From a virus: a stretch of 23,748 bases of DNA. Position 1 is the first letter of the stretch. The number at the start of each line of letters is the position of its first letter. Of the stretch, positions 1,217 to 22,962 are shown in pieces. The notes beneath the pieces were generated by a model, which saw only the letters and a list, made by a program, of their open reading frames with translations, did no database searches and was not told the origin of the DNA. Where the stretch lies: positions 1 to 23,748 of IMG/VR virus record IMGVR_UViG_3300030098_003223; one strand, written 5' to 3'. The position numbers and the translations under genes are program-made.

Positions 1217-1240
1217 TAATACGGTGTGTATACAGGGGAA
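1217..1240 (+). promoter_or_regulatory. T7-promoter-like element after the terminase gene
   Basis: The site reads TAATACGG, T, GTGTATACAGGGG. It shares TAATACG, a TATA core and a run of G with the T7 RNA polymerase promoter. It lies three bases after the terminase stop codon, the position of the phi-OR promoter region in T7. A copy differing at one base in the first 21 lies at 7119. It contains the 8-base palindrome TGTATACA. I infer a phage-polymerase promoter; the sequence alone does not prove activity. Confidence 0.5.
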
Positions 1241-2922: not shown

Positions 2923-2939
2923 ATCACAGTCAACTTCTT

Positions 2940-3071
2940 ATGAACAACTCAATGAACTATTACGAATCATTAGTAAAAGAAATTGATCAGTTAAAGAGTC
3001 AAGGTAAGTTAGTTAAATTCACACAACTTCCTTCACAAATTAACACCAAACGTAAATCAGTTAAGTTCTAA
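2940..3071 (+). CDS. Small early protein (43 aa), unknown
   Basis: A short basic protein with Lys-rich ends (KRKSVKF at the C-terminus). It follows the strong promoter at 2801 and the minihelix leader. There is no Shine-Dalgarno; TCACAGTCAACTTCTT directly precedes the ATG. A second in-frame ATG lies at codon 5. Its small size makes it tentative, but spacing and leader style match its neighbours. No family recognised. Confidence 0.5.
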   Translation: MNNSMNYYESLVKEIDQLKSQGKLVKFTQLPSQINTKRKSVKF

Positions 3072-3106
3072 TTAATTACTTACTGTTCACTCACTATTTA
3101 ACAAAC

Positions 3107-3313
3107 ATGACTCAACAAGTTGTTCTTCATTGCAAACCTGAAATCCTTGAAAATAGGGAGTTACTTAACTCATCTGATTTATTGATTTCAAATGTTACTG
3201 ACTTAGGAGAGATTGACATCTATGTTAATGATTTAGATACCATAGATGATGAGGAGTTATGTTTAAACTACGGAATTAATTATGATCTAGTTAATTGTGT
3301 AGAATTAGCTTAA
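3107..3313 (+). CDS. Acidic early protein (68 aa), unknown
   Basis: Very acidic: 15 Asp/Glu against 2 Lys/Arg in 68 residues, with a dense patch YVNDLDTIDDEEL at about 39-51. It lacks a Shine-Dalgarno and is preceded by a TTCAC-rich leader (TGTTCACTCACTATTTAAC). Acidic early phage proteins often bind host nucleic-acid enzymes, but nothing here proves that. I do not recognise a family. Confidence 0.6.
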   Translation: MTQQVVLHCKPEILENRELLNSSDLLISNVTDLGEIDIYVNDLDTIDDEELCLNYGINYDLVNCVELA

Positions 3314-3329
3314 CTCTCCGATTCTTTCT

Positions 3330-3368
3330 TGATAACATTCACAGTCAAATCGGTTGTGTTTGTTATCA
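3330..3368 (+). promoter_or_regulatory. Leader hairpin that presents TCACAGTCAA
   Basis: TGATAACA (3330-3337) pairs perfectly with TGTTATCA (3361-3368). Inside, CACA (3340-3343) pairs with TGTG (3355-3358) across a TT/TT internal loop. The repeated word TCACAGTCAA (3339-3348) lies within this structure. It stands 47 bases before the next start codon with no T tract, so a leader structure is more likely than a terminator. Confidence 0.45.
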
Positions 3369-3414
3369 CGAAGGATTCATAAATTGAACACCTTCACTAT
3401 TCACCAATTCTATT

Positions 3415-3732
3415 ATGTTTAACATGTTTATTACAGTTCCAACTCGCACAAGTGCAGCAGTTAAAGAGTTACAAGTTGATGGTCTAAATGGTCAAGCAAT
3501 TGTAACATATAACAGCGGTGATGTTTATGCGTATGGTAATGTTTCAAAACGTGCAATCATCAATGTATTGTTTAACCCAGACATAAGTCTTGGTTTTTGG
3601 GTTAATAGAAACCTATTACAATCTGATCGCGCTGAAGTATTAAATGGTGATGAGTTTGACTATGCAAACTACACAACAACACCATACTTGAAAGAGTTAC
3701 AAACTGAGGTTAAATTACCTGCATTTGCTTAA
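3415..3732 (+). CDS. KTSC-domain-like early protein (105 aa)
   Basis: Residues about 14-68 resemble the KTSC fold: a strand GQAIVTYNSGDVYAYGNVS, a helix (KRAIINVLF), then SLGFWVNRNL, matching the family pattern of a beta hairpin with G-x-Y-x-Y-x-x-V and a later S-x-G-x-x-x-N. KTSC domains occur in small phage and bacterial proteins, and their role is not well known. A start at the second ATG (3424) is equally possible. There is no Shine-Dalgarno. It belongs to the small early cluster and is followed by a terminator-like hairpin and a tRNA. Confidence 0.6.
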   Translation: MFNMFITVPTRTSAAVKELQVDGLNGQAIVTYNSGDVYAYGNVSKRAIINVLFNPDISLGFWVNRNLLQSDRAEVLNGDEFDYANYTTTPYLKELQTEVKLPAFA

Positions 3733-3743
3733 CTCTAACTAAT

Positions 3744-3766
3744 AGTGTCTTAATTGACACTTTTCT
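3744..3766 (+). terminator. Short hairpin with T run before tRNA-Asp
   Basis: AGTGTC (3744-3749) pairs with GACACT (3756-3761) around a 6-base loop, followed by TTTCT. It lies between the KTSC-like gene and the tRNA, so it could end the upstream message or mark the tRNA 5' processing border. The stem is only 6 pairs. Confidence 0.5.
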
Positions 3767-3838
3767 GATCCTATAGTTTAACGGTTAGAATGTTACCTTG
3801 TCACGGTAATGATGAGAGTTCGATTCTCTCTAGGATCG
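3767..3838 (+). tRNA. tRNA-Asp (anticodon GTC)
   Basis: A full cloverleaf can be drawn. The acceptor GATCCTA pairs with TAGGATC. The D arm is GTTT with GAAT, allowing G-U pairs. The anticodon stem is TTACC/GGTAA with loop TTGTCAC, a 4-base variable loop follows, then a T arm GAGAG-TTCGATT-CTCTC and discriminator G. CCA is not encoded. It is cotranscribed with the early genes. Isolated tRNAs are uncommon in T7-like cyanophages. Confidence 0.9.
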
Positions 3839-3889
3839 TTAGATAGCAAGCAATTGTTATCTATTTGTTCACTAATTCACAGTCAATTC

Positions 3890-4240
3890 ATGTCACAAAC
3901 AATTGGTACTGCATTTGAATTAATTAAGGATCAATATGATCTTGACACATTGCGTGAGATTGCTCAACATGGTTGTGAATCAGGAGTAGCAACTTTCCAC
4001 ATCTATTATTCAGAAACTGTTTCATTCTTCGATAACTATGAGGATGAGATAATTGAATACATTGCTGATACTTTCGGTGATGAATTCAATGAAACAATTT
4101 GGAACAATAACCCATGTAATATCATTGGTTATAAGAATGAAACTGTGTGGACATTTGTTGAACTTGTTGCATTACAATTAGTTGAAGAGTATGAATCAAC
4201 AACGTGTGAAGAATTAAGTGAGGAGTTAGTAACAGCATGA
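3890..4240 (+). CDS. Acidic early protein (116 aa), DUF7222-like
   Basis: I chose the ATG at 3890 because an upstream in-frame start would begin inside the tRNA. The leader is TCACAGTCAATTC with no Shine-Dalgarno. The core HGCESGVATFHIYYSETVSFF followed by EDEI resembles a widespread phage protein of unknown function (DUF7222, by my recollection of its H-G-C-x-S-G and Y-Y-x-x-T-x-x-F pattern). It is strongly acidic: 25 Asp/Glu against 3 Lys/Arg. Size, charge and position recall the T7 anti-restriction protein Ocr (gp0.3), but there is no clear sequence similarity, so any DNA-mimic role is conjecture. Confidence 0.7.
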   Translation: MSQTIGTAFELIKDQYDLDTLREIAQHGCESGVATFHIYYSETVSFFDNYEDEIIEYIADTFGDEFNETIWNNNPCNIIGYKNETVWTFVELVALQLVEEYESTTCEELSEELVTA

Positions 4241-4314
4241 CGACATTAATTGTTATCTTTTGTTTAACTGTCCTCCTTTACATCTTCCTTAAAAACATTC
4301 ATGACAACTACTAA
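4237..4314 (+). CDS. Membrane microprotein (25 aa) in a gene overlap
   Basis: The start overlaps the previous stop (ATGA) and the end overlaps the next gene by 14 bases. The product is almost entirely one hydrophobic helix (LIVIFCLTVLLYIFL) with a short polar tail (KNIHDNY). GAGGAG at 4221-4226 lies 10 bases before the start, so translational coupling is plausible. Tiny single-helix proteins can be holin-like or bind membrane complexes; no function can be given. Confidence 0.4.
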   Translation: MTTLIVIFCLTVLLYIFLKNIHDNY

Positions 4315-4531
4315 ATTCTTCTCAATGAATAACACTAAAGCAGAATTATTAGCTGAGGTTAAAAGACTTCACAATGATATTCTAGCTGAAGAGTTAAAAG
4401 AACCAACAGGATTACAAATGATTAGTGATGGTTCAGTGAAAGTATTTAACACCGTTAAGTATGAACTACCATTACTAGTTAAAGATGTAAAGAATGCTGG
4501 TTCAAGTTTGAAGAAGTTATTGACTTTTTGA
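4301..4531 (+). CDS. Small early protein (76 aa), unknown
   Basis: The N-terminal half is a probable helix (KAELLAEVKRLHNDILAEEL), and the C-terminus is Lys-rich and hydrophobic (SSLKKLLTF). No enzymatic motif is visible. The leader is TTAAAAACATTC with no Shine-Dalgarno. A terminator-like hairpin follows directly. It resembles the small uncharacterised proteins common in cyanophage early regions, but I cannot assign a family. Confidence 0.6.
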   Translation: MTTTKFFSMNNTKAELLAEVKRLHNDILAEELKEPTGLQMISDGSVKVFNTVKYELPLLVKDVKNAGSSLKKLLTF

Positions 4532-4543
4532 TTCTCTCACTTT

Positions 4544-4567
4544 ACCATCTATTGTAGATGGTTTTCT
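4544..4567 (+). terminator. Rho-independent-type terminator
   Basis: ACCATCTA (4544-4551) and TAGATGGT (4555-4562) form a perfect 8-pair stem with a 3-base loop, followed directly by TTTCT. It lies just after the gene ending at 4531. Confidence 0.6.
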
Positions 4568-4616
4568 GAGGGATTCTTCCCTTTAAATGTACTTTATTCA
4601 CAGTCAGTTCTTAACT

Positions 4617-4916
4617 ATGAGTCACCACAATCAACCTGAATACTTTACATTAGTATCGATATGTTCATTTGATGGTACACCAACTGTCATAGGAATCTTT
4701 GAAGATATTGATGCTGTAATGTATAGATTAAAGAGATTTCATTCATCATGCGGTGATGAATACCGTATCGAATGTTTTCATCTAAGCACAGCAGATAAAG
4801 AATCAAAAGAATATAATGATTTAATAGTTTCTAGACGAAAGCATCAACAAGAGCAGCAAATGCTTAAGGAAGTATATACTGCGGATGAAGAAAAAGAGGA
4901 GGTTAAAGTATCATGA
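4617..4916 (+). CDS. Small early protein (99 aa), unknown
   Basis: I chose the ATG at 4617; a longer in-frame start at 4587 would read through the repeated word TCACAGTCAG, which in neighbouring genes lies in the leader. The N-terminal part looks like an alpha/beta fold (EYFTLVSICSFDG, then IGIFEDIDAVMYRL). The C-terminal 40 residues are highly charged (RRKHQQEQQ, DEEKEEVKV). It overlaps the next gene as ATGA. Function unknown. Confidence 0.6.
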   Translation: MSHHNQPEYFTLVSICSFDGTPTVIGIFEDIDAVMYRLKRFHSSCGDEYRIECFHLSTADKESKEYNDLIVSRRKHQQEQQMLKEVYTADEEKEEVKVS

Positions 4917-5119
4917 GAGATAAAATAATCAAAGCATTATTATCACACGCTCAAGGAGATATACAAAAACATTTAGCAAATATAGAAATATATCTAACTA
5001 ATCCATCAGGTATTGGAGAACATTCTGATATCTTGGAATCAATTGAACATGAAATTAATCAAGTCGCTAAGTATCAAGATCAAATTGACGTTATTCAGAG
5101 GTATTTGAAACATGAATGA
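4913..5119 (+). CDS. Small early protein (68 aa), probably helical
   Basis: Unlike the earlier genes it has a good Shine-Dalgarno (GAGGAGG at 4896-4902, 10 bases from the ATG). The ATGA overlap with the upstream gene suggests coupling. The sequence is mostly amphipathic helix (KALLSHAQGDIQKHLANIEIYL, with a later helix ending IQRYLKHE). No motif recognised. Confidence 0.6.
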   Translation: MRDKIIKALLSHAQGDIQKHLANIEIYLTNPSGIGEHSDILESIEHEINQVAKYQDQIDVIQRYLKHE

Positions 5120-5270
5120 ACATGAATTCTATGTTGGATTAAGTAAAGAAAGATGGGAAGATGTAATAGATTATGTATTATATGCTATTCAATCTCCCAT
5201 TTCTGATGATGAAGAATATCAAAATGGATTACAGATCATAGAATTAATTAAGGAGCAAATGTACGATTAA
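5112..5270 (+). CDS. Small acidic early protein (52 aa)
   Basis: Overlaps the previous gene by 8 bases and the next by 1 (TAATG). The 52 residues are acidic, with two likely helices (SKERWEDVIDYVLYAIQS and NGLQIIELIKEQM). The tight overlaps on both sides support it as a real member of the operon. No family recognised. Confidence 0.55.
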   Translation: MNEHEFYVGLSKERWEDVIDYVLYAIQSPISDDEEYQNGLQIIELIKEQMYD

Positions 5271-5404
5271 TGTTATTAGTTTCACAGTCAATTCCGCAGG
5301 TAGATAGTAACACTTTATACAAAATCTATAAAGAAGTTACTAAACCTATACCTATCAAGTATCCTCCGACAAGGAGGCACTACAACATTCATTCATTTGG
5401 TTAA
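5270..5404 (+). CDS. Small early protein (44 aa), tentative
   Basis: The start overlaps the previous stop as TAATG, and the frame stays open to two bases before the next ATG at 5407. It contains the repeated word in its codons 5-7 (read as SQS) and ends with a basic stretch (YPPTRRHYNIHSFG). It may instead be a leader region: AAGGAGG near 5372 lies inside it, though 28 bases from the next start. Confidence 0.4.
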   Translation: MLLVSQSIPQVDSNTLYKIYKEVTKPIPIKYPPTRRHYNIHSFG

Positions 5405-5406
5405 TT

Positions 5407-5601
5407 ATGACATTCAAAAACTATCAATTCTCAATCAACGTTAAAACAAATCACGATCCAAGAAAGGCTATCTTTGAGATAGTTAACCAGTTAAAAGGTA
5501 TACTACCAGTATTATCAATTGACTACAAATTAATAGAAGATAGAGATGTTACAACAGAACATCACGGAGGGGTAGATGATAACACCAAATTGGAGACATA
5601 A
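5407..5601 (+). CDS. Small early protein (64 aa), unknown
   Basis: The N-terminal half alternates polar and hydrophobic residues (YQFSINVKTN), followed by a helix (RKAIFEIVNQLKGIL), an alpha/beta pattern; the tail is polar. It overlaps the following basic gene by 26 bases, and a GGAGG within it serves that next gene. No motif recognised. Confidence 0.55.
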   Translation: MTFKNYQFSINVKTNHDPRKAIFEIVNQLKGILPVLSIDYKLIEDRDVTTEHHGGVDDNTKLET

Positions 5602-5731
5602 CTCAGGAAAGTTACCTAAACGTACACTAAAACCTCAAGCAATGAGACAATCTCGTGCTAAATTACGCTCACTTATCAACAAATTACATGATTCACAGTC
5701 AAAACAACGACAAGGACGCACTAGAGAGTGA
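5576..5731 (+). CDS. Small basic protein (51 aa)
   Basis: It has a good Shine-Dalgarno (GGAGG about 7 bases before the ATG) and a strongly basic composition with many Arg/Lys (KLPKRTLKPQAMRQSRAKLR, and later KQRQGRTRE), as expected of a nucleic-acid binder. It overlaps the next gene by 44 bases, and the repeated word lies in the overlap, read in two different frames. Function unknown. Confidence 0.5.
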   Translation: MITPNWRHNSGKLPKRTLKPQAMRQSRAKLRSLINKLHDSQSKQRQGRTRE

Positions 5732-5873
5732 TGCTAAGTATTTAGTTACTCTTCAAAGTGGTAGAACATTCGTGTTAAATTCTGGATACGATGTATACCA
5801 AGCGGCATATGATGCTTATGAAGAAGCATGTTTGCATGATGACTATTTAGTAAATGCGGAGTTAATCGAATGA
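5688..5873 (+). CDS. Small acidic early protein (61 aa)
   Basis: I chose the ATG at 5688 (a GTG at 5655 would add 11 residues); neither has a Shine-Dalgarno. The repeated word forms its second to fifth codons (IHSQ). The core YLVTLQSGRTFVLNSGYDVYQAAYDAYEEA looks like a beta hairpin followed by a helix. It ends in an ATGA overlap with the next gene. No family recognised. Confidence 0.55.
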   Translation: MIHSQNNDKDALESDAKYLVTLQSGRTFVLNSGYDVYQAAYDAYEEACLHDDYLVNAELIE

Positions 5874-6196
5874 GTAAAAAACCTTATTTTCCTAACAACT
5901 GGAAACAAATCAAGAATGCACCTTCTTCAATGTTTGAATCTATCAGTTATGATGAATTCATGGAATGGAAAGTAGCAGGTTGGGAACTTCCTGGTTCTGT
6001 ATCTTGCATTATCAGGGATGAGAATTTTAAGACTGGTAAAATAAAAGAATACATTTATCAAAGTGATACAGCAGCTAATAATAAGATATCATCATTAATG
6101 AAACAAGGTGAGAGTCTTATTGCAGTATGTTGTGTCGATACAATACACCACATGACACCTAAAGAGGAGGAAGATGATGAATTCGAGGACGCTTGA
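5870..6196 (+). CDS. Conserved cyanophage early protein (108 aa)
   Basis: The N-terminal pattern KKPYFPNNWK, the FMEWKVAGWELPGSV core and a CIIR...KTGKIKEYIYQ strand pair match a small protein that I recall from many marine cyanophages, always of unknown function. The C-terminus is very acidic (PKEEEDDEFEDA). It overlaps the upstream gene by 4 bases and contains the Shine-Dalgarno and start of the next one. Its proximity to the RNA polymerase gene suggests an early role. Confidence 0.75.
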   Translation: MSKKPYFPNNWKQIKNAPSSMFESISYDEFMEWKVAGWELPGSVSCIIRDENFKTGKIKEYIYQSDTAANNKISSLMKQGESLIAVCCVDTIHHMTPKEEEDDEFEDA

Positions 6197-6332
6197 GGAT
6201 ATCTATTCTTACAAAAAGCAAGCGTTAGATCTTTTAGATAAAGATCATCCACATTATGATGAAATTAAATCACTATTAACCGACCAAATCAAGGACGAAA
6301 TAGAAGATCATGCCAACACCCGCTCAAATTGA
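6174..6332 (+). CDS. Small charged protein (52 aa) before the RNA polymerase gene
   Basis: GAGGAGG lies about 5 bases before a double ATG, a strong ribosome site. The product is a charged, helical-looking protein (LEDIYSYKKQALDLLDKDH, then YDEIKSLLTDQIKDEIED). It overlaps the previous gene by 23 bases and the RNA polymerase gene by 23, so translation of the polymerase may be coupled to it; the polymerase has only AAGGA well upstream. Function unknown. Confidence 0.55.
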   Translation: MMNSRTLEDIYSYKKQALDLLDKDHPHYDEIKSLLTDQIKDEIEDHANTRSN

Positions 6333-8649
6333 TGAACAAATCAAACTAGAAAGGGATCAAATATCTCTAGGAATCGAACGCTTACATAAGAATACTAAGC
6401 AATTAGAGGAAAAGAGTTATAGTTCAGCTACTATTTATGGTATTTCGTCTATCGATAGTTTATTACCATTGGTAGTAGATAAGATTAAGGATACTAATAA
6501 TAGATTACATAAAGGTGCAGCAGGTAAATCATTCAAAGAGTTACATCAATATTTATCTAATCTTGAACCTTTAGCGGCAGCAGCTATAGCATGTAAGATA
6601 ACATTTGATAAAGTATTTAGTATTAAAGAAGGTAGCAATCAATTAATCACAGTCAGTGAATCAATTGGCCAAGCTATTGAGAATGAATGTCAAATGAGAC
6701 ATTATGAAAATAAAGCACCAGCATTATTAAACACTTTAAAAGATAATTATTGGCATCAATCATGTGGTACTCATCAAAAGATAGTAGTAATACAAACTCT
6801 CATGAACAGGTACGGTATACCACAATGGGCATCATGGGGTAGATCTAATAGAATTAAACTTGGAACTTGGTTATTAGATTGTATTATGAGTACAAGTGGT
6901 TGGTTCCATAAAGAAATGCGTCAACAAGGACGCAAGCGAGTTAATTACATAGTACCTACAGCTGAATTTCTAGTAATTAAAGATCAAGTAATGCATGAGA
7001 GTGAACTATTCGCTCCATTAGCATGGCCAATGTTAATTGAACCTAACGATTGGGGTATAAAGCCAGGTGGTTACTTACTTAATGAGGTAATGAAAGGTCA
7101 TGAAATGGTTAGGCGTGGTAATACGGGGTGTATACAGGGAGATAAACCTATAGCTTTCTTGAATAAGATTCAGAAAGTAGGTTATCGACTTAATCAATTC
7201 ATTGTAAACGTAGCTGAAGAGCTTGATGAAAGAGGGATAAGTGTAGGAAAGTTTATCCCAATAGTTGAATTAGATCTCCCTCCAAAACCTCCTGATATAG
7301 CAGATAACAAGGACGCACGTAAAGCGTACCGTAGAGCAGCAGCAACAGTTAGAAATACTAATGCTGGTGCATTTAGACGTTCTTGTAGAACAAGGATGAC
7401 TATGGAGGCAGTTAAGAGGTTTAAAGATCGTGAGAGGTTTTATATACCTTGGTCTTTTGATTACCGAGGTAGGGCTTATCCTATACCCGCGTTTCTCACA
7501 CCACAAGATACTGATTTCGGGAAGTCACTTTTGGTCTTCGCTGATTCAGCACCTATTACACATGATGCATTTAAGTGGTTAGCTTTTCAAGTTGCTACTA
7601 CATATGGTCTTGATAAAGAAACTTGGGATGTAAGACAAAGTTGGGTTAGGAATAATCACCCTTTGATTACTAGAATAGCTAAGTTTCCTATAGAAGAATT
7701 ACCAAATTGGGAAGTAGCGGAAGAGCCTTGGCAATTTTTAGCTGCATGTGAGGAGTACTATGCTTGTGTTATTTCACAGTCAAGAAAAACAACCTCGCTT
7801 TGTGTAGCCACAGACGCTACATGTAGTGGTCTCCAGATCCTCGCTGGTTTAGCGATGGACCGTAGTACAGCACAACTCGTCAATGTGTTACCTTCTGATA
7901 GACCACAAGACGCTTATAAGGTCGTAGCTGAAACTGCTAAACCTAATATACCTAAGTACCTACATAATGTATGGTCTAGACGCTCAGTCAAAAGAACCGT
8001 CATGACAATACCCTATAATGCAAAACCATTCTCGAATCGTTCGTACATTAGGGACGCATTGAAAGAAGATGGTATTGATATAGATAAAGATGATCTCACA
8101 ATCGTTGTCGCAGCTGTTCGTCAGGCTATGAATGATATAGTTCCTGGTCCTATGGCAGTTATGTCATGGATAGAGAAGGAAGTATCTAAACAATTTAAAG
8201 ATAATCCTAACTTAACTTTAACATGGACTACACCATCTGGATTTGTTGTTAATCAAAAGATTCAGAAAAAGAAAGTTGAAAGATTATGTTTACAGTTATT
8301 GGGGTCTTGTGAGATTCGAGTAGCTACAGATAATCCTAATGAGGCTGATATAACAAGACATAGAGCAGCAACAGCTCCTAATCTTATACATTCACTAGAT
8401 GCTACACTTTTGCATCTTAGTGTTGAGCGTTTTAACGCACCAATTGCATTAATTCATGACAGTGTATTAAGTCGTGCTACAGATATGAGTTTACTTGCTA
8501 CAATAGTAAGGGAAACTTACATGCACTTATTCGCTGGTAATGATTACCTAACAGACTTTGCTACTCAAATAGGAGCAGAGACTGAACCACCGATCATAGG
8601 AGACCTTGAACCGGAATCCGTGATTGACTCCACTTATTTCTTTTGTTAA
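6310..8649 (+). CDS. T7-type single-subunit RNA polymerase
   Basis: At 779 residues it is about 100 shorter than T7 RNA polymerase (883), mostly in the N-terminal domain, as usual for cyanopodoviruses. Catalytic parts are clear: FDYRGRAYP (T7 DWRGRVY), D502 in TDATCSGLQ (T7 D537), K561-R562 through Y569 in KRTVMTIPY (T7 K631 to Y639), APNLIHSLDA, and D717 in LIHDS (T7 D812). The last residues YFFC keep the aromatic end that reaches the active site in T7. It would switch transcription from host to phage promoters. The gene contains two copies of TCACAGTCA (6647, 7774) and a T7-promoter-like site at 7119. Confidence 0.97.
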   Translation: MPTPAQIDEQIKLERDQISLGIERLHKNTKQLEEKSYSSATIYGISSIDSLLPLVVDKIKDTNNRLHKGAAGKSFKELHQYLSNLEPLAAAAIACKITFDKVFSIKEGSNQLITVSESIGQAIENECQMRHYENKAPALLNTLKDNYWHQSCGTHQKIVVIQTLMNRYGIPQWASWGRSNRIKLGTWLLDCIMSTSGWFHKEMRQQGRKRVNYIVPTAEFLVIKDQVMHESELFAPLAWPMLIEPNDWGIKPGGYLLNEVMKGHEMVRRGNTGCIQGDKPIAFLNKIQKVGYRLNQFIVNVAEELDERGISVGKFIPIVELDLPPKPPDIADNKDARKAYRRAAATVRNTNAGAFRRSCRTRMTMEAVKRFKDRERFYIPWSFDYRGRAYPIPAFLTPQDTDFGKSLLVFADSAPITHDAFKWLAFQVATTYGLDKETWDVRQSWVRNNHPLITRIAKFPIEELPNWEVAEEPWQFLAACEEYYACVISQSRKTTSLCVATDATCSGLQILAGLAMDRSTAQLVNVLPSDRPQDAYKVVAETAKPNIPKYLHNVWSRRSVKRTVMTIPYNAKPFSNRSYIRDALKEDGIDIDKDDLTIVVAAVRQAMNDIVPGPMAVMSWIEKEVSKQFKDNPNLTLTWTTPSGFVVNQKIQKKKVERLCLQLLGSCEIRVATDNPNEADITRHRAATAPNLIHSLDATLLHLSVERFNAPIALIHDSVLSRATDMSLLATIVRETYMHLFAGNDYLTDFATQIGAETEPPIIGDLEPESVIDSTYFFC
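7119..7144 (+). promoter_or_regulatory. T7-promoter-like element inside the RNA polymerase gene
   Basis: It reads TAATACGG, G, GTGTATACAGGG, then AGATA. It matches the intergenic copy at 1217 at 20 of the first 21 bases and, like the T7 promoter, has TAATACG, TATA and GGGAGA. It is in frame as NTGCIQGDK, so coincidence through coding constraint is possible, but the non-coding copy argues against that. A promoter here could make a message for the 3' part of the gene and the replication genes. Confidence 0.45.
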
Positions 8650-8880
8650 ATGTACAATTATTCACTTTTTGATAGCTTCTTTGCTCCAACTAGAGTTATA
8701 GTTGTCTCGGAAGAGCGACTAAAACAGAAGGAGATTGAACTCAAAGAGAACCAAATCAAGGTTGTAAACAACCGTATTGATGAACTAGTCAAGTATCGTT
8801 CTGAATTACAGGATGAATTAAAGGAACTAGCACCTGAAAGCCGTAAAGTAGCTTTGGAGGAGTCAGTATCCGATGTCTAG
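8650..8880 (+). CDS. Small coiled-coil protein (76 aa)
   Basis: It starts at the base after the polymerase stop codon. The N-terminus is hydrophobic and aromatic (YNYSLFDSFFAP). Residues about 20-65 are a heptad-rich coiled coil (SEERLKQKEIELKENQIK, then DELVKYRSELQDELKEL). The tail is acidic. It overlaps the ssDNA-binding gene by 8 bases and contains that gene's GGAGGAG site. Cyanopodoviruses often carry a small gene here; its function is unknown. Confidence 0.6.
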   Translation: MYNYSLFDSFFAPTRVIVVSEERLKQKEIELKENQIKVVNNRIDELVKYRSELQDELKELAPESRKVALEESVSDV

Positions 8881-9442
8881 AACTGTTCACGTCACAGAAA
8901 AACCCGTAACACTTGAAGGATTTCAAGCTATACTAGCACCTAGTAAGTTTGGTTATTCCCTCTCGGCTGTAGTTGGTAACGATGTTATCGACAAATTAGA
9001 GGCTGAAAGAGCTGCAGTCCTTAAATGGGCTGAGTCAAAATTGAAAAACCCTAAAAGATCCACGCTCAAGCCCGAGCCGTGGGAAGAATTAGCAAAGGGT
9101 AAGCATAAGATTAAGTTCTCTTGGTCTGAAGATAAAAAACCACCTGTTGTAGATACAGAAGGCTCGCCATTAACAGATGTTAAAACACCACTATATGCAG
9201 GGTCTACAGTTAAATTGGGTTTCTATCAGAAACCTTATATCCTCAGAGATGGAGTTACCTATGGTAGTTCTCTTAAGCTTGTTGGTGTACAGGTTGTCTC
9301 AGTAAAAGGAGAAGCTGGTGTAGATACTGGAGATTTAGACGCTACCGAAGTAGCAGAACTATTTGGTACTACTGCTGGTTTTAAAACATCAGATCCTAAT
9401 GTAACACCAATCACCAATGCAGAAGAAGAAGAAGACTTCTAA
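8873..9442 (+). CDS. Single-stranded DNA-binding protein, gp2.5-like
   Basis: A 189-residue protein in the T7 gp2.5 position with the typical body of short beta strands (APSKFGYSLSAVVG, TPLYAGSTVKLGFYQK, SLKLVGVQVVSVKG) and, decisively, an acidic tail with a terminal aromatic residue (EEEEDF). In T7 this tail contacts the DNA polymerase and the primase-helicase. The protein coats single strands and helps annealing and recombination at the fork. A GGAGGAG ribosome site precedes it. Its tail codons are (GAA)n and are reused in another frame by the next gene. Confidence 0.85.
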   Translation: MSRTVHVTEKPVTLEGFQAILAPSKFGYSLSAVVGNDVIDKLEAERAAVLKWAESKLKNPKRSTLKPEPWEELAKGKHKIKFSWSEDKKPPVVDTEGSPLTDVKTPLYAGSTVKLGFYQKPYILRDGVTYGSSLKLVGVQVVSVKGEAGVDTGDLDATEVAELFGTTAGFKTSDPNVTPITNAEEEEDF

Positions 9443-9791
9443 ATATAAGTCAGGCTTAGAAGAGCAAGTTGCAAAATTATTAGAAGGACTCGGAGTTTCT
9501 TATGAATACGAATCTTGTAAGATTCCTTATACCATCCAGCATAATTATCATCCTGATTTTATTCTCCCAAACCATGTACACCTTGAAACAAAAGGATACT
9601 GGTCCGCGCCAGACAGACGGAAGATTGCAGCTGTTAAGAGGGACAACCCGGAATTAGATTTAAGGATGGTTTTTCAGTCACCATATAATAAAATATCAAA
9701 AGGATCTAAAACTACGTATGCGAAATGGTGTGAAAAACATGACATACCATGGACGCATTTCCACAATATACCTATTGATTGGTTAATATAA
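9417..9791 (+). CDS. Endonuclease I, gp3-like Holliday-junction resolvase
   Basis: A 124-residue homologue of T7 gp3 endonuclease. Aligned catalytic residues are E15 in SGLE, D47 in HPDF, E57 and K59 in LETKG, corresponding to T7 E20, D55, E65 and K67. RMVFQSPYNK and YAKWCEKHDI are also conserved in the family. It resolves branched DNA before packaging and degrades host DNA. It overlaps the gp2.5 gene by 26 bases, its basic start (QKKKKTSKYK) being encoded by the same GAA-rich DNA as the acidic tail, and ends in a TAATG overlap with the primase-helicase. Confidence 0.9.
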   Translation: MQKKKKTSKYKSGLEEQVAKLLEGLGVSYEYESCKIPYTIQHNYHPDFILPNHVHLETKGYWSAPDRRKIAAVKRDNPELDLRMVFQSPYNKISKGSKTTYAKWCEKHDIPWTHFHNIPIDWLI

Positions 9792-11368
9792 TGACTGAAA
9801 GTGAGTTCGTGAGGCACATGCCTTGCGGTAATTGTGGTTCATCAGATGGAAATTCTCTCTACTCTGATGGACACACTTTCTGTTTTGTCTGTCACAATAG
9901 AACAGGCGACAATGATGTTATTCACAGTCAAAGAATGACTAGCACCGTCCAGTTAAAAGGATCAGCCGAAAGGTTGCATAAACGGAATTTATCAGAAAAA
10001 ACTAATCAGTTCTATCAGATTTATAGAGATGGTAATACCTTAAGGTTTGCTTATTATGATGAATCTGGTGTACTGAAAGGTATTAAAACAAAAAATAAAC
10101 AAAAAGACTTTAGATATGAAGGAGTTTCCACTGATACTTTATTCGGTCAGCATCGCTTCCCTAGTAGTGGCAAACGTATTGTTATTACTGAGGGTGAATT
10201 AGATGCTGCCAGTTGTTACGAAGCTATGCCCGGATGGCCGATGGTTTCGTTACCGCATGGAGCCGCTTCCGCAAAGAAAGATTGTCAGAAACAAATACCT
10301 TTGTTCCAAGGGTACGAAGAGATCATATTATTCTTCGATGGTGACGATGCAGGGCGCAAGGCCGCTGACGAAACGGCAAGTATATTACCGCCTGGTAAAG
10401 TCAAGATCGCACGCTTGGAATCGTACAAGGATGCATCTGATGCGTTACAGGCGAATGATACAGATGCAATAAGAAAGGCTATATGGAATGCTAAACCTTA
10501 TAGACCAGACGGAATTGTAGAAGGAAAAACTTTAGAAGCTATAGTCACTACACCTATACCACCTGCTGACCATGACTACCCATTTAAAGGGCTACAAGAT
10601 AAATTGCACGGGATTAGATATCAGGAGCTTACAACGATTACTTCAGGATCTGGCCAAGGAAAGTCCGCATTCTGCCGTCAACTTGCAGTTAACTTACTCA
10701 CCAAAGGAGTACGGGTCGGGTACCTGGCACTTGAAGAGTCAAATAGACGAACCGCACTTGGATTGATGTCCACAGCTGTAGGCAAATCCCTTCATATCGG
10801 AGAACATGACAAAAAAGAACTTGAAAACGATTTTCGTGATACCCTTGCTAATTGGAATCTTTACCTTTTTGATGGCTTTGGTAGTTTTGACCCGGACGTT
10901 ATTTACAACAGGATCGAATACCTTGCCAGTGGATTGGAGTGTCGCGTTATATTCTTAGATCACCTCAGTATATTATTGAGTGGTCTGGATGGGGATGAGC
11001 GTAGAATGCTGGATCAGACAATGACAAAATTAAGGTCGTTAGTAGAGAGGACTGGTATTTCATTATTTTTAGTCTCACATTTAAGAAGGAGTAACAATGA
11101 CAGAACCTCACACGAAGAAGGAGGAAAAGTATCTCTATCGCAACTTCGGGGATCTGCGGGAATCGCTCAACTTAGCGATCAAGTCGTTGCCCTCGAGCGA
11201 AATCAGCAGTCCCCAGATGAACGAGATATTACGACTATTAGAATCATTAAAAATCGCTATTCAGGCGAAACGGGCTTCGCAGGTAAAATAAAATTTAATT
11301 TAGATACTTCACGGTTTACTGATTATGAAACTGAAACAACACGATTCAACCCATCAACAGACTTCTAA
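9791..11368 (+). CDS. DNA primase-helicase, gp4-like
   Basis: A 525-residue fusion. The N-terminal zinc domain has C12, C15, C31 and C34 around SSDGNSLYSDGHTF. The TOPRIM primase domain has TEGELDA and FFDGDDAGRKA. The helicase has Walker A GSGQGKS with K291, a Walker B strand VIFLDHLS and a late RGSAGIAQLSD. The C-terminus ends STDF, like the acidic-aromatic end of T7 gp4 that binds the polymerase. The ATG overlaps the gp3 stop (TAATG). A TCACAGTCA copy lies in the variable linker after the zinc domain (9922). It unwinds the fork and primes the lagging strand. Confidence 0.95.
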   Translation: MTESEFVRHMPCGNCGSSDGNSLYSDGHTFCFVCHNRTGDNDVIHSQRMTSTVQLKGSAERLHKRNLSEKTNQFYQIYRDGNTLRFAYYDESGVLKGIKTKNKQKDFRYEGVSTDTLFGQHRFPSSGKRIVITEGELDAASCYEAMPGWPMVSLPHGAASAKKDCQKQIPLFQGYEEIILFFDGDDAGRKAADETASILPPGKVKIARLESYKDASDALQANDTDAIRKAIWNAKPYRPDGIVEGKTLEAIVTTPIPPADHDYPFKGLQDKLHGIRYQELTTITSGSGQGKSAFCRQLAVNLLTKGVRVGYLALEESNRRTALGLMSTAVGKSLHIGEHDKKELENDFRDTLANWNLYLFDGFGSFDPDVIYNRIEYLASGLECRVIFLDHLSILLSGLDGDERRMLDQTMTKLRSLVERTGISLFLVSHLRRSNNDRTSHEEGGKVSLSQLRGSAGIAQLSDQVVALERNQQSPDERDITTIRIIKNRYSGETGFAGKIKFNLDTSRFTDYETETTRFNPSTDF

Positions 11369-11489
11369 ATACATTAGACCACATCCACCAAGTAAAGAGG
11401 CAATCAAACGTGCCAGATTCATCGACAAAACCTATACCTGGGTTAGGAACAATAGTGTTCGATCTGGAGGCAAACGGTCTCCTAAGTGA
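11325..11489 (+). CDS. Possible small basic protein (54 aa) bridging two genes
   Basis: An ATG frame overlaps the end of the primase-helicase gene by 44 bases and the start of the exonuclease gene by 80. The product is basic (KEAIKRARF, VRSGGKRSPK) with an aromatic centre (DKTYTWVRNN). There is no Shine-Dalgarno. Small genes between helicase and polymerase are common in T7-like phages, but it could be a chance frame; codon-level conservation in relatives would decide. Confidence 0.3.
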   Translation: MKLKQHDSTHQQTSKYIRPHPPSKEAIKRARFIDKTYTWVRNNSVRSGGKRSPK

Positions 11490-11976
11490 TGCTACCTATA
11501 TCCACTGTGTTGTACTCCACTATCTTAAAGATAACCATACGGAAACGCACAATGATGAAAGCCCTGGTGAAGGAATGTCTAATCCTATTATCAGAGCAGT
11601 TCAACATTTGGAACTTGCTGATGTTCTTGTGGGCCATAATATCATTGGGTATGATTTACCTTTGCTTAAAAGGCTCTATCCTTTTTTTAATCCCCGCGGT
11701 ATTATTATCGATACTCTCCTTTTATCTAGGCTCTATCATCCGAATTTATTTGAGATAGACAAGAATAGAAATTGGAAACATATGCCATTACAATTATATG
11801 GTCGTCATTCACTTGAGGCGTACGGTTACAGATTATCAGAATACAAAGGGAACTTTAGTAAAGATACTGATTGGCAAAAGTGGTCTCAAGAAATGGAGGA
11901 TTATTGTAAACAAGATGTAGTTGTTACCACCAAATTATGCAAACACTTCCACCCTTACCTCAGTGGGTCGAATTAG
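11410..11976 (+). CDS. DNA polymerase, 3'-5' exonuclease part (split gp5)
   Basis: The start is GTG at 11410, with GAGG 9 bases upstream; no in-frame ATG fits. The 188 residues match the N-terminal proofreading domain of T7 gp5: VFDLEANGLL (T7 SDIEANALL), VGHNIIGYDLPLL (T7 FHNGHKYDVPAL), IDTLLLSRLYHPNL, SLEAYGYRLSEYKG and YCKQDVVVTTKL with the last catalytic Asp. The frame then stops, and homology continues in another frame in the gene starting at 11937. Either the enzyme is made as two chains, a -1 frameshift joins them, or one base is missing. Confidence 0.88.
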   Translation: MPDSSTKPIPGLGTIVFDLEANGLLSDATYIHCVVLHYLKDNHTETHNDESPGEGMSNPIIRAVQHLELADVLVGHNIIGYDLPLLKRLYPFFNPRGIIIDTLLLSRLYHPNLFEIDKNRNWKHMPLQLYGRHSLEAYGYRLSEYKGNFSKDTDWQKWSQEMEDYCKQDVVVTTKLCKHFHPYLSGSN

Positions 11977-13208
11977 AACACGAGGTAGCACGATTACTTA
12001 CACAACAAGAGATTCATGGATGGTATTTTGATGAACGCGCTGCACGGGAACTTGAATCTGCTCTCCGAAAAGAGTATGAAGAGACTTGTGCATTACTTCG
12101 AAACAAACACCCTTACATTGCAGGACCATTATTTACTCCTAAGCGAAATAATCGGACCCAAGGCTATGTTGCAGGGGCTGAAAGTACCAGACTTAAAGAA
12201 TTAAATCCCACATCTAGGGATCACATATCATGGATCTTACAAACACATTATGGTTGGACGCCTTCATCAATAACGAACTCAGGGAAGGCGGTTATAGACG
12301 AGACCGTATTAAAAGATATTGGGACGGATATAGCTCTCCAGTTTTTGACACTACTGGATCTGACAAAAAAGCTTGGGATGATATCAGAAGGCGTGAACGC
12401 ATGGCAGAAGCTTGTTACGACGTCTAGTAGAATACACCACCACTGTTCGGTAGCTACTCAAACTTTTAGAGCAGCCCACCGATCTCCAAATTTATCACAG
12501 GTACCATCAGATGAAAGGTTTAGGAAATTATTTAAAGCATCCCCTGGTATGGTTATGTGCGGGGCTGACCTTAGCGGCATTGAGCTTCGAGTATTATCCC
12601 ATTATCTTGCAAAATATGATGAAGGACGCTATGCGGAAATCCTTATCAACGGAGACATTCACCAAACAAATGCCGACAAAATTGGAATTACCAGACGACA
12701 AGTTAAAACAGTTACCTATGCCTTCCTCTACGGGGCAGGTGATGTCAAAATAGGACACTCTTATGACAAACAGCTTTCCGAGAACGAGGCGAGAAAAAAG
12801 GGTAAAGAAATACGTAAAGCTTATGTCGATGCCATTCCAGGTCTTAAAGAACTCTTGGAAGCAGTACACAAGGCTAGTGAGAGGGGTTATGTTCGCGGAT
12901 TGGACAATAGAAAAATCTTATGCGAGTCGAAACATAAGTCCGTCAATTACCTCATCCAGGGGTCTTCGGCGGTAATAGCAAAACGTTGGATGGTTACCAC
13001 CCATGACCACATCAAAGAAATGGATTTACGCTGTAACCAGCTCGCTTTTATTCATGACGAGTTGCAGTTTGAATCTGAACCAGAACATGTTGATGATCTC
13101 AAACATCTTCTTGTTCTCTCCGCTGCTGAAGCCGGAGAATATTACAATTTACGATGTCCCATAGCGGCTGAATCACAGTCAGGAGCTACATGGGCAGACG
13201 TACACTAA
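11937..13208 (+). CDS. DNA polymerase, polymerase part (split gp5)
   Basis: The 423-residue family A polymerase core. Motif A is GADLSGIELRVLSHY with D211, motif B is KTVTYAFLYGAGDVKIG with Y261 (T7 Y526, the tyrosine type at E. coli position 762), and motif C is IHDELQ with H373-D374. The loop matching the T7 thioredoxin-binding insert is short (about 30 residues around PLFTPKRNN to NPTSRDH), as in other cyanopodoviruses. Homology with gp5 already exists at WVELEHEVARLL, so the junction lies just before it. The ATG at 11937 has no ribosome site. Overlap with the exonuclease frame is 40 bases. Confidence 0.92.
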   Translation: MQTLPPLPQWVELEHEVARLLTQQEIHGWYFDERAARELESALRKEYEETCALLRNKHPYIAGPLFTPKRNNRTQGYVAGAESTRLKELNPTSRDHISWILQTHYGWTPSSITNSGKAVIDETVLKDIGTDIALQFLTLLDLTKKLGMISEGVNAWQKLVTTSSRIHHHCSVATQTFRAAHRSPNLSQVPSDERFRKLFKASPGMVMCGADLSGIELRVLSHYLAKYDEGRYAEILINGDIHQTNADKIGITRRQVKTVTYAFLYGAGDVKIGHSYDKQLSENEARKKGKEIRKAYVDAIPGLKELLEAVHKASERGYVRGLDNRKILCESKHKSVNYLIQGSSAVIAKRWMVTTHDHIKEMDLRCNQLAFIHDELQFESEPEHVDDLKHLLVLSAAEAGEYYNLRCPIAAESQSGATWADVH

Positions 13209-13211
13209 TTT

Positions 13212-13976
13212 ATGAAAATATTATGCGATGCAGACTTTATTGTCTACAAATCGTGTGCTGCAGCTGAAACTGAAATTGATTGGGGTGATGATACTATCCT
13301 TGTCACTAGCAATTTTAGCGACGCATATAATGCCACGAAACGTGAACTTACCAAAATTTCAAACAAATTTGGGTCATTCGCTTCTATGATACTGTTCTTT
13401 TCTGACAGTGTAAATTTCAGGAAAAAAATATTGGCCGATTATAAAGGTCATCGAAATAGAAAAAAGCCTTGCGGCTATAAGCGTGTCATCAATAAACTCA
13501 AGAATGAGTTTGAAGTAATTATTATGCCTGAATTAGAGGCAGATGATAGTATGGGAGTTTACGCAACCCAACATCCTGGTAATATTATTGTATCTCCTGA
13601 TAAAGATATGAAACAAATTCCAGGTCAATTATATAATTTTGAGGAAACATTCACAGTCACTCCTGAAGAGGGTGCGCGGTGGCACTTAATTCAAAGTGCA
13701 GCTGGTGACCAAACTGATGGATACGGTGGCATCCCAGGAATTGGGGTGAAACGCGCTCAAGCTTTATTTAAAGAGCATGGATACTCTTGGAAAACAGTAG
13801 TAAATGCTTTTGCAGAAAAAGACTTATCTGAAGATGTAGCATTAATAAATGCACGTCTTGCTCGAATATTAACTGTAGATGATTATGACTTCAAAAAAAG
13901 AAAACCTATCCTTTGGTCTCCCAGCTCCAGTTACGAAATTAACGATGGAGCAAGATCTGAAGTTAAGGTTAATTGA
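13212..13976 (+). CDS. 5'-3' exonuclease, gp6-like
   Basis: A 254-residue flap-type nuclease. Metal-binding acids appear as CDADF at the start, MPELEADDSMG, SPDKDMKQIPG and GDQTDGYGGIPG, with the last running into a helix-hairpin-helix (IPGIGVKRAQALF). FFSDSVNFRKKIL and KKPCGYKRV match T7 gp6. It removes RNA primers and degrades host DNA for nucleotides. A TCACAGTCA copy (13651) lies in it, read as TVT. The gene's end overlaps the next frame by 98 bases. Confidence 0.92.
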   Translation: MKILCDADFIVYKSCAAAETEIDWGDDTILVTSNFSDAYNATKRELTKISNKFGSFASMILFFSDSVNFRKKILADYKGHRNRKKPCGYKRVINKLKNEFEVIIMPELEADDSMGVYATQHPGNIIVSPDKDMKQIPGQLYNFEETFTVTPEEGARWHLIQSAAGDQTDGYGGIPGIGVKRAQALFKEHGYSWKTVVNAFAEKDLSEDVALINARLARILTVDDYDFKKRKPILWSPSSSYEINDGARSEVKVN

Positions 13977-22891: not shown

Positions 22892-22962
22892 GCGAGTATA
22901 GTTTAACGGTAAAACTGTAGCCTTCCAAGCTACTGTTAAGGGTTCGAGTCCCTTTACTCGCT
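22892..22962 (+). tRNA. tRNA-Gly (anticodon TCC)
   Basis: A complete cloverleaf: acceptor GCGAGTA with TACTCGC, D arm GTTT with AAAC, anticodon stem GTAGC/GCTAC with loop CTTCCAA, 4-base variable loop, T arm AAGGG-TTCGAGT-CCCTT, discriminator T. CCA is not encoded. It stands between a head-gene candidate and the capsid gene, so late transcription is expected. Confidence 0.93.

Follow-up and report, generated by a model that had tools for sequence, protein, structure and literature searches.

A predicted two-copy promoter for the phage-encoded T7-like RNA polymerase of a P-SSP7-related podovirus, with a covarying hairpin joined to one copy

The element TAATACGGTGTGTATACAGGGG, located immediately downstream of the terminase gene of a podovirus whose relatives include the cyanophages NATL1A-7, S-RIP1 and P-SSP7, is very probably a promoter, here called P2, and one of exactly two predicted to serve the phage's own single-subunit T7-like RNA polymerase (RNAP). 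The window analyzed here is a stretch of 23,748 nucleotides (positions 1 to 23,748 of the IMG/VR record IMGVR_UViG_3300030098_003223). Comparison of its sequence with those of relatives establishes the two-copy layout, the pairing of the two copies within each genome, the covariation of promoter bases with polymerase residues and the presence of a covarying hairpin. P-SSP7-type podoviruses, which infect marine cyanobacteria, are widespread, and what promoters their polymerases use has so far been guesswork; a screen published in 2024 used an unrelated predicted P-SSP7 sequence and named promoter prediction as a bottleneck (PMC11475235). As a promoter, P2 would be a further member of the Syn5 kind, while neither the relation between residues and bases nor the hairpin has, to our knowledge, been described: a search of open-licence papers yielded no P-SSP7 promoter, cyanopodovirus small RNA or promoter-polymerase covariation beyond the work cited here.

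P2 occupies positions 1217-1238 of the + strand, with its TATA at 1229-1232, and begins 2 bases past the stop codon (TAG 1212-1214) of the gene for the terminase large subunit, whose 3' part (3-1214, + strand) is truncated by the start of the window. A sequence-only reading of this DNA had described the element correctly in both sequence and place. It had also reported a copy at 7119, which is indeed present (TAATACGGGGTGTATACAGGGA, 7119-7140, + strand, two mismatched positions) and is not intergenic: this copy, P1, sits within the coding sequence of the RNAP (6310-8649, + strand, 779 aa, Pfam RNA_pol and RPOL_N, alignable with T7 RNAP), and the RNAP genes of relatives carry theirs at the equivalent position, about nt 790-820. 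Within the recognition region the two copies of the window differ by a single base, T or G at -8 in the T7 register. No third copy of the 22-mer exists in the full record, even when 6 mismatches are allowed, this count applying to 43,626 bases that may be slightly incomplete, and dinucleotide shuffles gave zero matches at up to 3 mismatches. The sequence-only reading would have counted a lack of further intergenic copies against a promoter; this is the wrong refutation test, because Syn5, whose system is defined by experiment, has only two promoters, one of them intragenic in its RNAP gene, and the record shows the same layout. The short core TGTGTATACAGGGG, searched with 3 mismatches, produced 3 matches for 1.68 expected, which is chance level, and this 14-mer taken alone was dropped as evidence. 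Since the short core does not rise above chance, the evidence consists of the long match and of the comparison among relatives.

Another repeat of the window, TCACAGTCA, was considered as a rival promoter. Its 11 copies are all on the + strand at 2924-13659, in the early and replication region, and none was found in the remaining 30 kb or on the - strand. It is confined to the closest relatives and occurs within genes as well as between them.

The relatives were gathered from IMG/VR through the terminase (80) and through the RNAP (80) and completed with 11 named phage records, providing 34 loci in which both sites could be read; these are not independent lineages and include near-duplicates, such as L021, L139 and L142, which share one site. 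The pairing score was that of the best ungapped alignment of post-terminase DNA to a fixed segment of the RNAP gene. The sequence of the element varies between phages, and the post-terminase element matches the RNAP gene of its own genome in 33 of the 34 loci, with a mean score of 19.5 against the own segment versus 10.7 against the RNAP segments of other genomes; none of 10,000 permutations produced as good a mean. The own segment was the best match, or tied for it, in 26/34 loci, the exceptions to pairing being L080, which is clear, and L012, which is only partial. Fixing the segment matters to this score: with the whole RNAP gene as target, 28% of mismatched pairs reached 12 or more and the control overlapped. 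Common descent alone is insufficient to account for identity within genomes because the upstream bases vary freely between phages. An exact scan of IMG/VR for a 21-mer of the element returned no match, since the recognition bases differ among phages.

The coding context of P1 carries the same signature. The variable promoter bases form the codons of about four variable residues flanked by conserved RRG and IQG, and this variable stretch changes each time the promoter changes. In 96/96 RNAP genes with a readable motif, the element encodes Ile by ATA and Gln by CAG, codons used for these residues in 37% and 35% of cases elsewhere in those genes. The genes are kin and do not represent independent events; in this codon count, L065, L066 and L088 were misaligned by the register of the regular expression, a matter of which the alignment-based pairing test is independent. 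It can be observed that the intragenic promoter (7100-7150, RNAP codons about 266-278) dictates some of the polymerase's own amino acids. A simple rule emerges, by which the sequence common to the post-terminase site and to the RNAP gene at about nt 790-820 would be the promoter; it offers a concrete promoter candidate for dozens of polymerases together.

If these elements are promoters, their bases should be read by the polymerase, and a comparison of about a hundred related viruses points to the residues that would do so. Background-corrected mutual information was computed for 72 RNAP-promoter pairs over 465 variable residues, those encoded by the element itself being excluded, and ranked residues 668, 210, 178, 205, 68, 660, 70, 66 and 666 highest. 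In the alignment with T7 RNAP, residues 660 and 668 fall in the specificity loop, at N748 and R756, which are individual promoter contacts; 205 and 210 belong to the intercalating hairpin and 65-77 to the AT-rich recognition loop. T7 RNAP binds its promoter through these three elements (PMC13029058). With TATA placed at -4 to -1, the associations follow a colinear order: the AT-rich loop with about -15/-16, residue 660 with -12/-11, 668 with -9, 205 and 210 with -6 and 178 with -5; residues 66-77 also covary with promoter bases.

The correspondence is near-deterministic. Residue 668 pairs E with G (15/15), Q with T (24/24), N with T (5/5), R with C (4/4) and K with A (14/16); residue 178 pairs R with G (53/53); and residue 210 pairs R with T (20/20) and T with C (44/44). 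If the base read by residue 668 is the one on the template strand (E-C, R-G, Q/N-A), this relation fits classical contacts. Relatedness was controlled with 36 disjoint nearest-neighbor pairs, distance being measured outside the promoter-reading regions, and Fisher p-values were 2e-6 for 668, 4e-8 for 178, 2e-6 for 210 and 1e-5 for 660 with -11, all somewhat optimistic given that the tested pairs were chosen from the ranking and the enrichment intervals set after a first ranking. For residue 670, the counterpart of T7 Q758, no link with -8 was seen (p 0.39). The window itself agrees with the table, with E668-G, R178-G, R210 and Q205-T, L66-A and K68-T; the codons of its covarying residues R178, Q205, R210, C660 and E668 lie at 6841, 6922, 6937, 8287 and 8311. 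Such a table of residues and bases is directly testable and could be used in the design of orthogonal polymerase-promoter pairs.

Pairing within genomes, this covariation and the layout shared with Syn5 together lend strong support to the earlier proposal that the element is a candidate promoter of the phage's own polymerase. Could the repeat instead be a site of recombination, replication or packaging, or the remnant of a gene conversion? Two near-identical copies, one of them near the genome end (in P-SSP7, the terminal repeat follows at about 1.15 kb), are what such a site might look like. It would not predict covariation with promoter-reading RNAP residues in independent close pairs, nor that the two copies of Syn5 are active promoters (PMC3950665), and we regard it as highly improbable. 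The predicted promoter is not of the T7-consensus type either. TAATACG, TATA and a G-run are all present, and the sequence-only reading had built its T7 likeness on them; the TAATACG resemblance is coincidental, as this stretch varies freely among relatives, where TAATACG is absent, and falls out of the T7 register by one base once TATA is set at -4 to -1. The window RNAP has E at the position of T7 R756. Moreover, the recognition region of TAATACGACTCACTATAGGGAGA, the T7-type promoter, from -17 to -5 is not conserved, and the record has two copies where a T7-type promoter would have many, upstream of middle and late genes. The T7-consensus explanation was rejected and its probability is close to nil.

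P2 differs from P1 in what follows it. Hairpin 1 (1234-1262, + strand), with the loop AAGGGTGGA at 1244-1252, is predicted from covariation, from a covariance model (41.4 bits) and from folding, the fold of 1232-1312 having a z of -3.1. Relatives likewise possess, immediately 3' of the post-terminase start, a stem with this near-invariant 9-nt loop. In an alignment of 58 distinct sequences anchored on the loop, 81.9% of cells pair, and covariation reaches 0.648 versus 0.255 in shuffled and at most 0.336 in slid alignments, with two-sided changes in 10/10 pairs; in roughly half of the sequences two of the inner pairs do not form and look like an internal loop. Across 867 kb the covariance model matched 16 times, never twice in one contig, always just past the terminase and never at the RNAP-gene copies; most of these matches belong to the training set, and the result speaks for specificity of position, not for discovery. 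At least 119 IMG/VR stretches contain one and the same exact 27-base string spanning promoter and hairpin; bacterial genome contigs, scanned for one promoter-hairpin pattern, gave no match. Hairpin 2 (1266-1299, + strand), followed by a T-rich tract that extends to 1313, resembles a terminator and presumably acts as one; under a permissive criterion, 92/92 loci tested have such a terminator-like hairpin and a T-rich tract after the element. A second loop class, AAGTGGTG or AGTGGTG and then TGTGTGGA, was observed just past the terminase in L034, L084 (Syn5) and L092 (P-SSP10), and seems to be a sister version of this hairpin.

Since late transcripts started at P1 need an end and a terminator-like hairpin comes next, hairpin 1 might be the 3' end of such transcripts, as a terminator or stabilizer lying beside P2 by chance. 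The spacing makes this unlikely. Promoter and loop lie 10-16 nt apart, with 15 in 106/137, a nearly constant interval; between stop codon and promoter the gap can be anything within 2-50 nt in this set and is larger in others. Because the first interval is nearly fixed and the second variable, hairpin 1 is tied to the start site and goes with the transcript of the promoter.

We propose that P1, within the RNAP gene, most likely drives a long rightward transcript covering the replication and virion genes. The P2 transcript would begin within TATACAG, with a predicted start on the + strand at 1232-1235 (A1232 in the Syn5 register, C1233 in the T7 register, G1235 being the first G). Its RNA would fold at once into the 5' hairpin displaying the AAGGGUGGA loop and then meet the terminator-like hairpin, where many transcripts would end at about 70-80 nt; the remainder would read through to the transaldolase gene talC (1608-2261, + strand, Pfam TAL_FSA), the first large gene 3' of P2, and, on concatemers, to the left end. 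We infer the termination and the abundance of this transcript, as well as a role for its hairpin. A tentative reading, with nearly an even chance of being right, is that P2 produces a dedicated small structured RNA about 70-80 nt long. Most P-SSP7-type cyanophages would carry this RNA and transcribe it with their own polymerase; it would consist of the 5' AAGGGUGGA-loop hairpin and the terminator hairpin, and its loop would target a phage protein, host RNA or packaging. It is also quite possible, if somewhat short of an even chance, that P2 serves mainly, like T7 phiOR, for read-through to talC and the concatemer junction, as a means to replication, packaging or late expression of talC, and that the hairpins are only a leader. 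phiOR is equally placed, the gene after the element in relatives is usually talC or thyX, and Syn5 RNAP passes a T7 terminator in vitro (PMC3950665). A terminator-like hairpin right after P2 would be odd in a promoter meant for talC expression; such a hairpin recurs in every locus tested, and the loop is conserved far above the need of a mere leader. Whichever function applies, the covarying hairpin is fused to P2 and not to the copy in the RNAP gene. It is a new candidate RNA from phages that have already been studied well.

Elsewhere, the window holds a glutamine-II riboswitch aptamer (Rfam RF01704; 21524-21584, + strand; 53.7 bits versus a gathering score of 33) located 5' of a small ORF, and two tRNA genes on the + strand, at 3766-3839 and 22892-22962, for Asp (gtc) and Gly (tcc).

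Among known systems, the hairpin behaves like the structured RNAs of Rfam, with covariation and a conserved loop, yet it matches none of them: Rfam 15 gave no family at 1217-1320 for E up to 5. In T7, phiOR is a promoter placed after the terminase gene. The window shares with T7 this position, a TATA before the start and equivalent reading elements in the RNAP, and differs in its recognition bases and in having two copies in the record where T7 has many promoters. In P-SSP7, AACCCCTACGTATACAGGGG is found exactly at 6853, in the RNAP gene, and at 43820, past the terminase, and at no other site with up to 5 mismatches. The two positions, the TATACAGGGG end and the AAGGGTGGA hairpin are as in the window, and the recognition bases are not. 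The published PHIRE prediction for P-SSP7, AAAATTCTTCAAGTTTACAA (PMC11475235), is unrelated to either this pair or the window element.

Syn5 offers the closest precedent in experiment. The Syn5 RNAP is biochemically characterized, its experimentally defined promoter is ATTGGGCACCCGTAA, and only two promoters are present in the Syn5 genome, one of them within the RNAP gene (PMC3950665, citing Zhu et al. 2013). We located one copy just past the terminase, at 44797, and the other at 4929, about nt 791-809 of the RNAP gene. The sequence-only reading had cited Syn5 as a contrast, which holds for the sequence and not for the layout; several relatives even carry CACCCGTA, like the Syn5 promoter. The Syn5 promoter is proven by experiment, whereas that of the window is predicted from comparison. 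The initiation region is TATACAGG in the window and GTAAG in Syn5, and the hairpin loop is AAGGGTGGA in the former and AAGTGGTG in the latter, the AAGTGGTG hairpins of Syn5 and P-SSP10 having been read by eye at the corresponding place. Both phages encode a single-subunit T7-like RNAP, that of the window being 36% identical to that of Syn5, and both have two copies only, in the RNAP gene and after the terminase, with a hairpin starting at the post-terminase start site. The recognition bases are different, as in nearly every relative: the layout is shared, the specificity is not.
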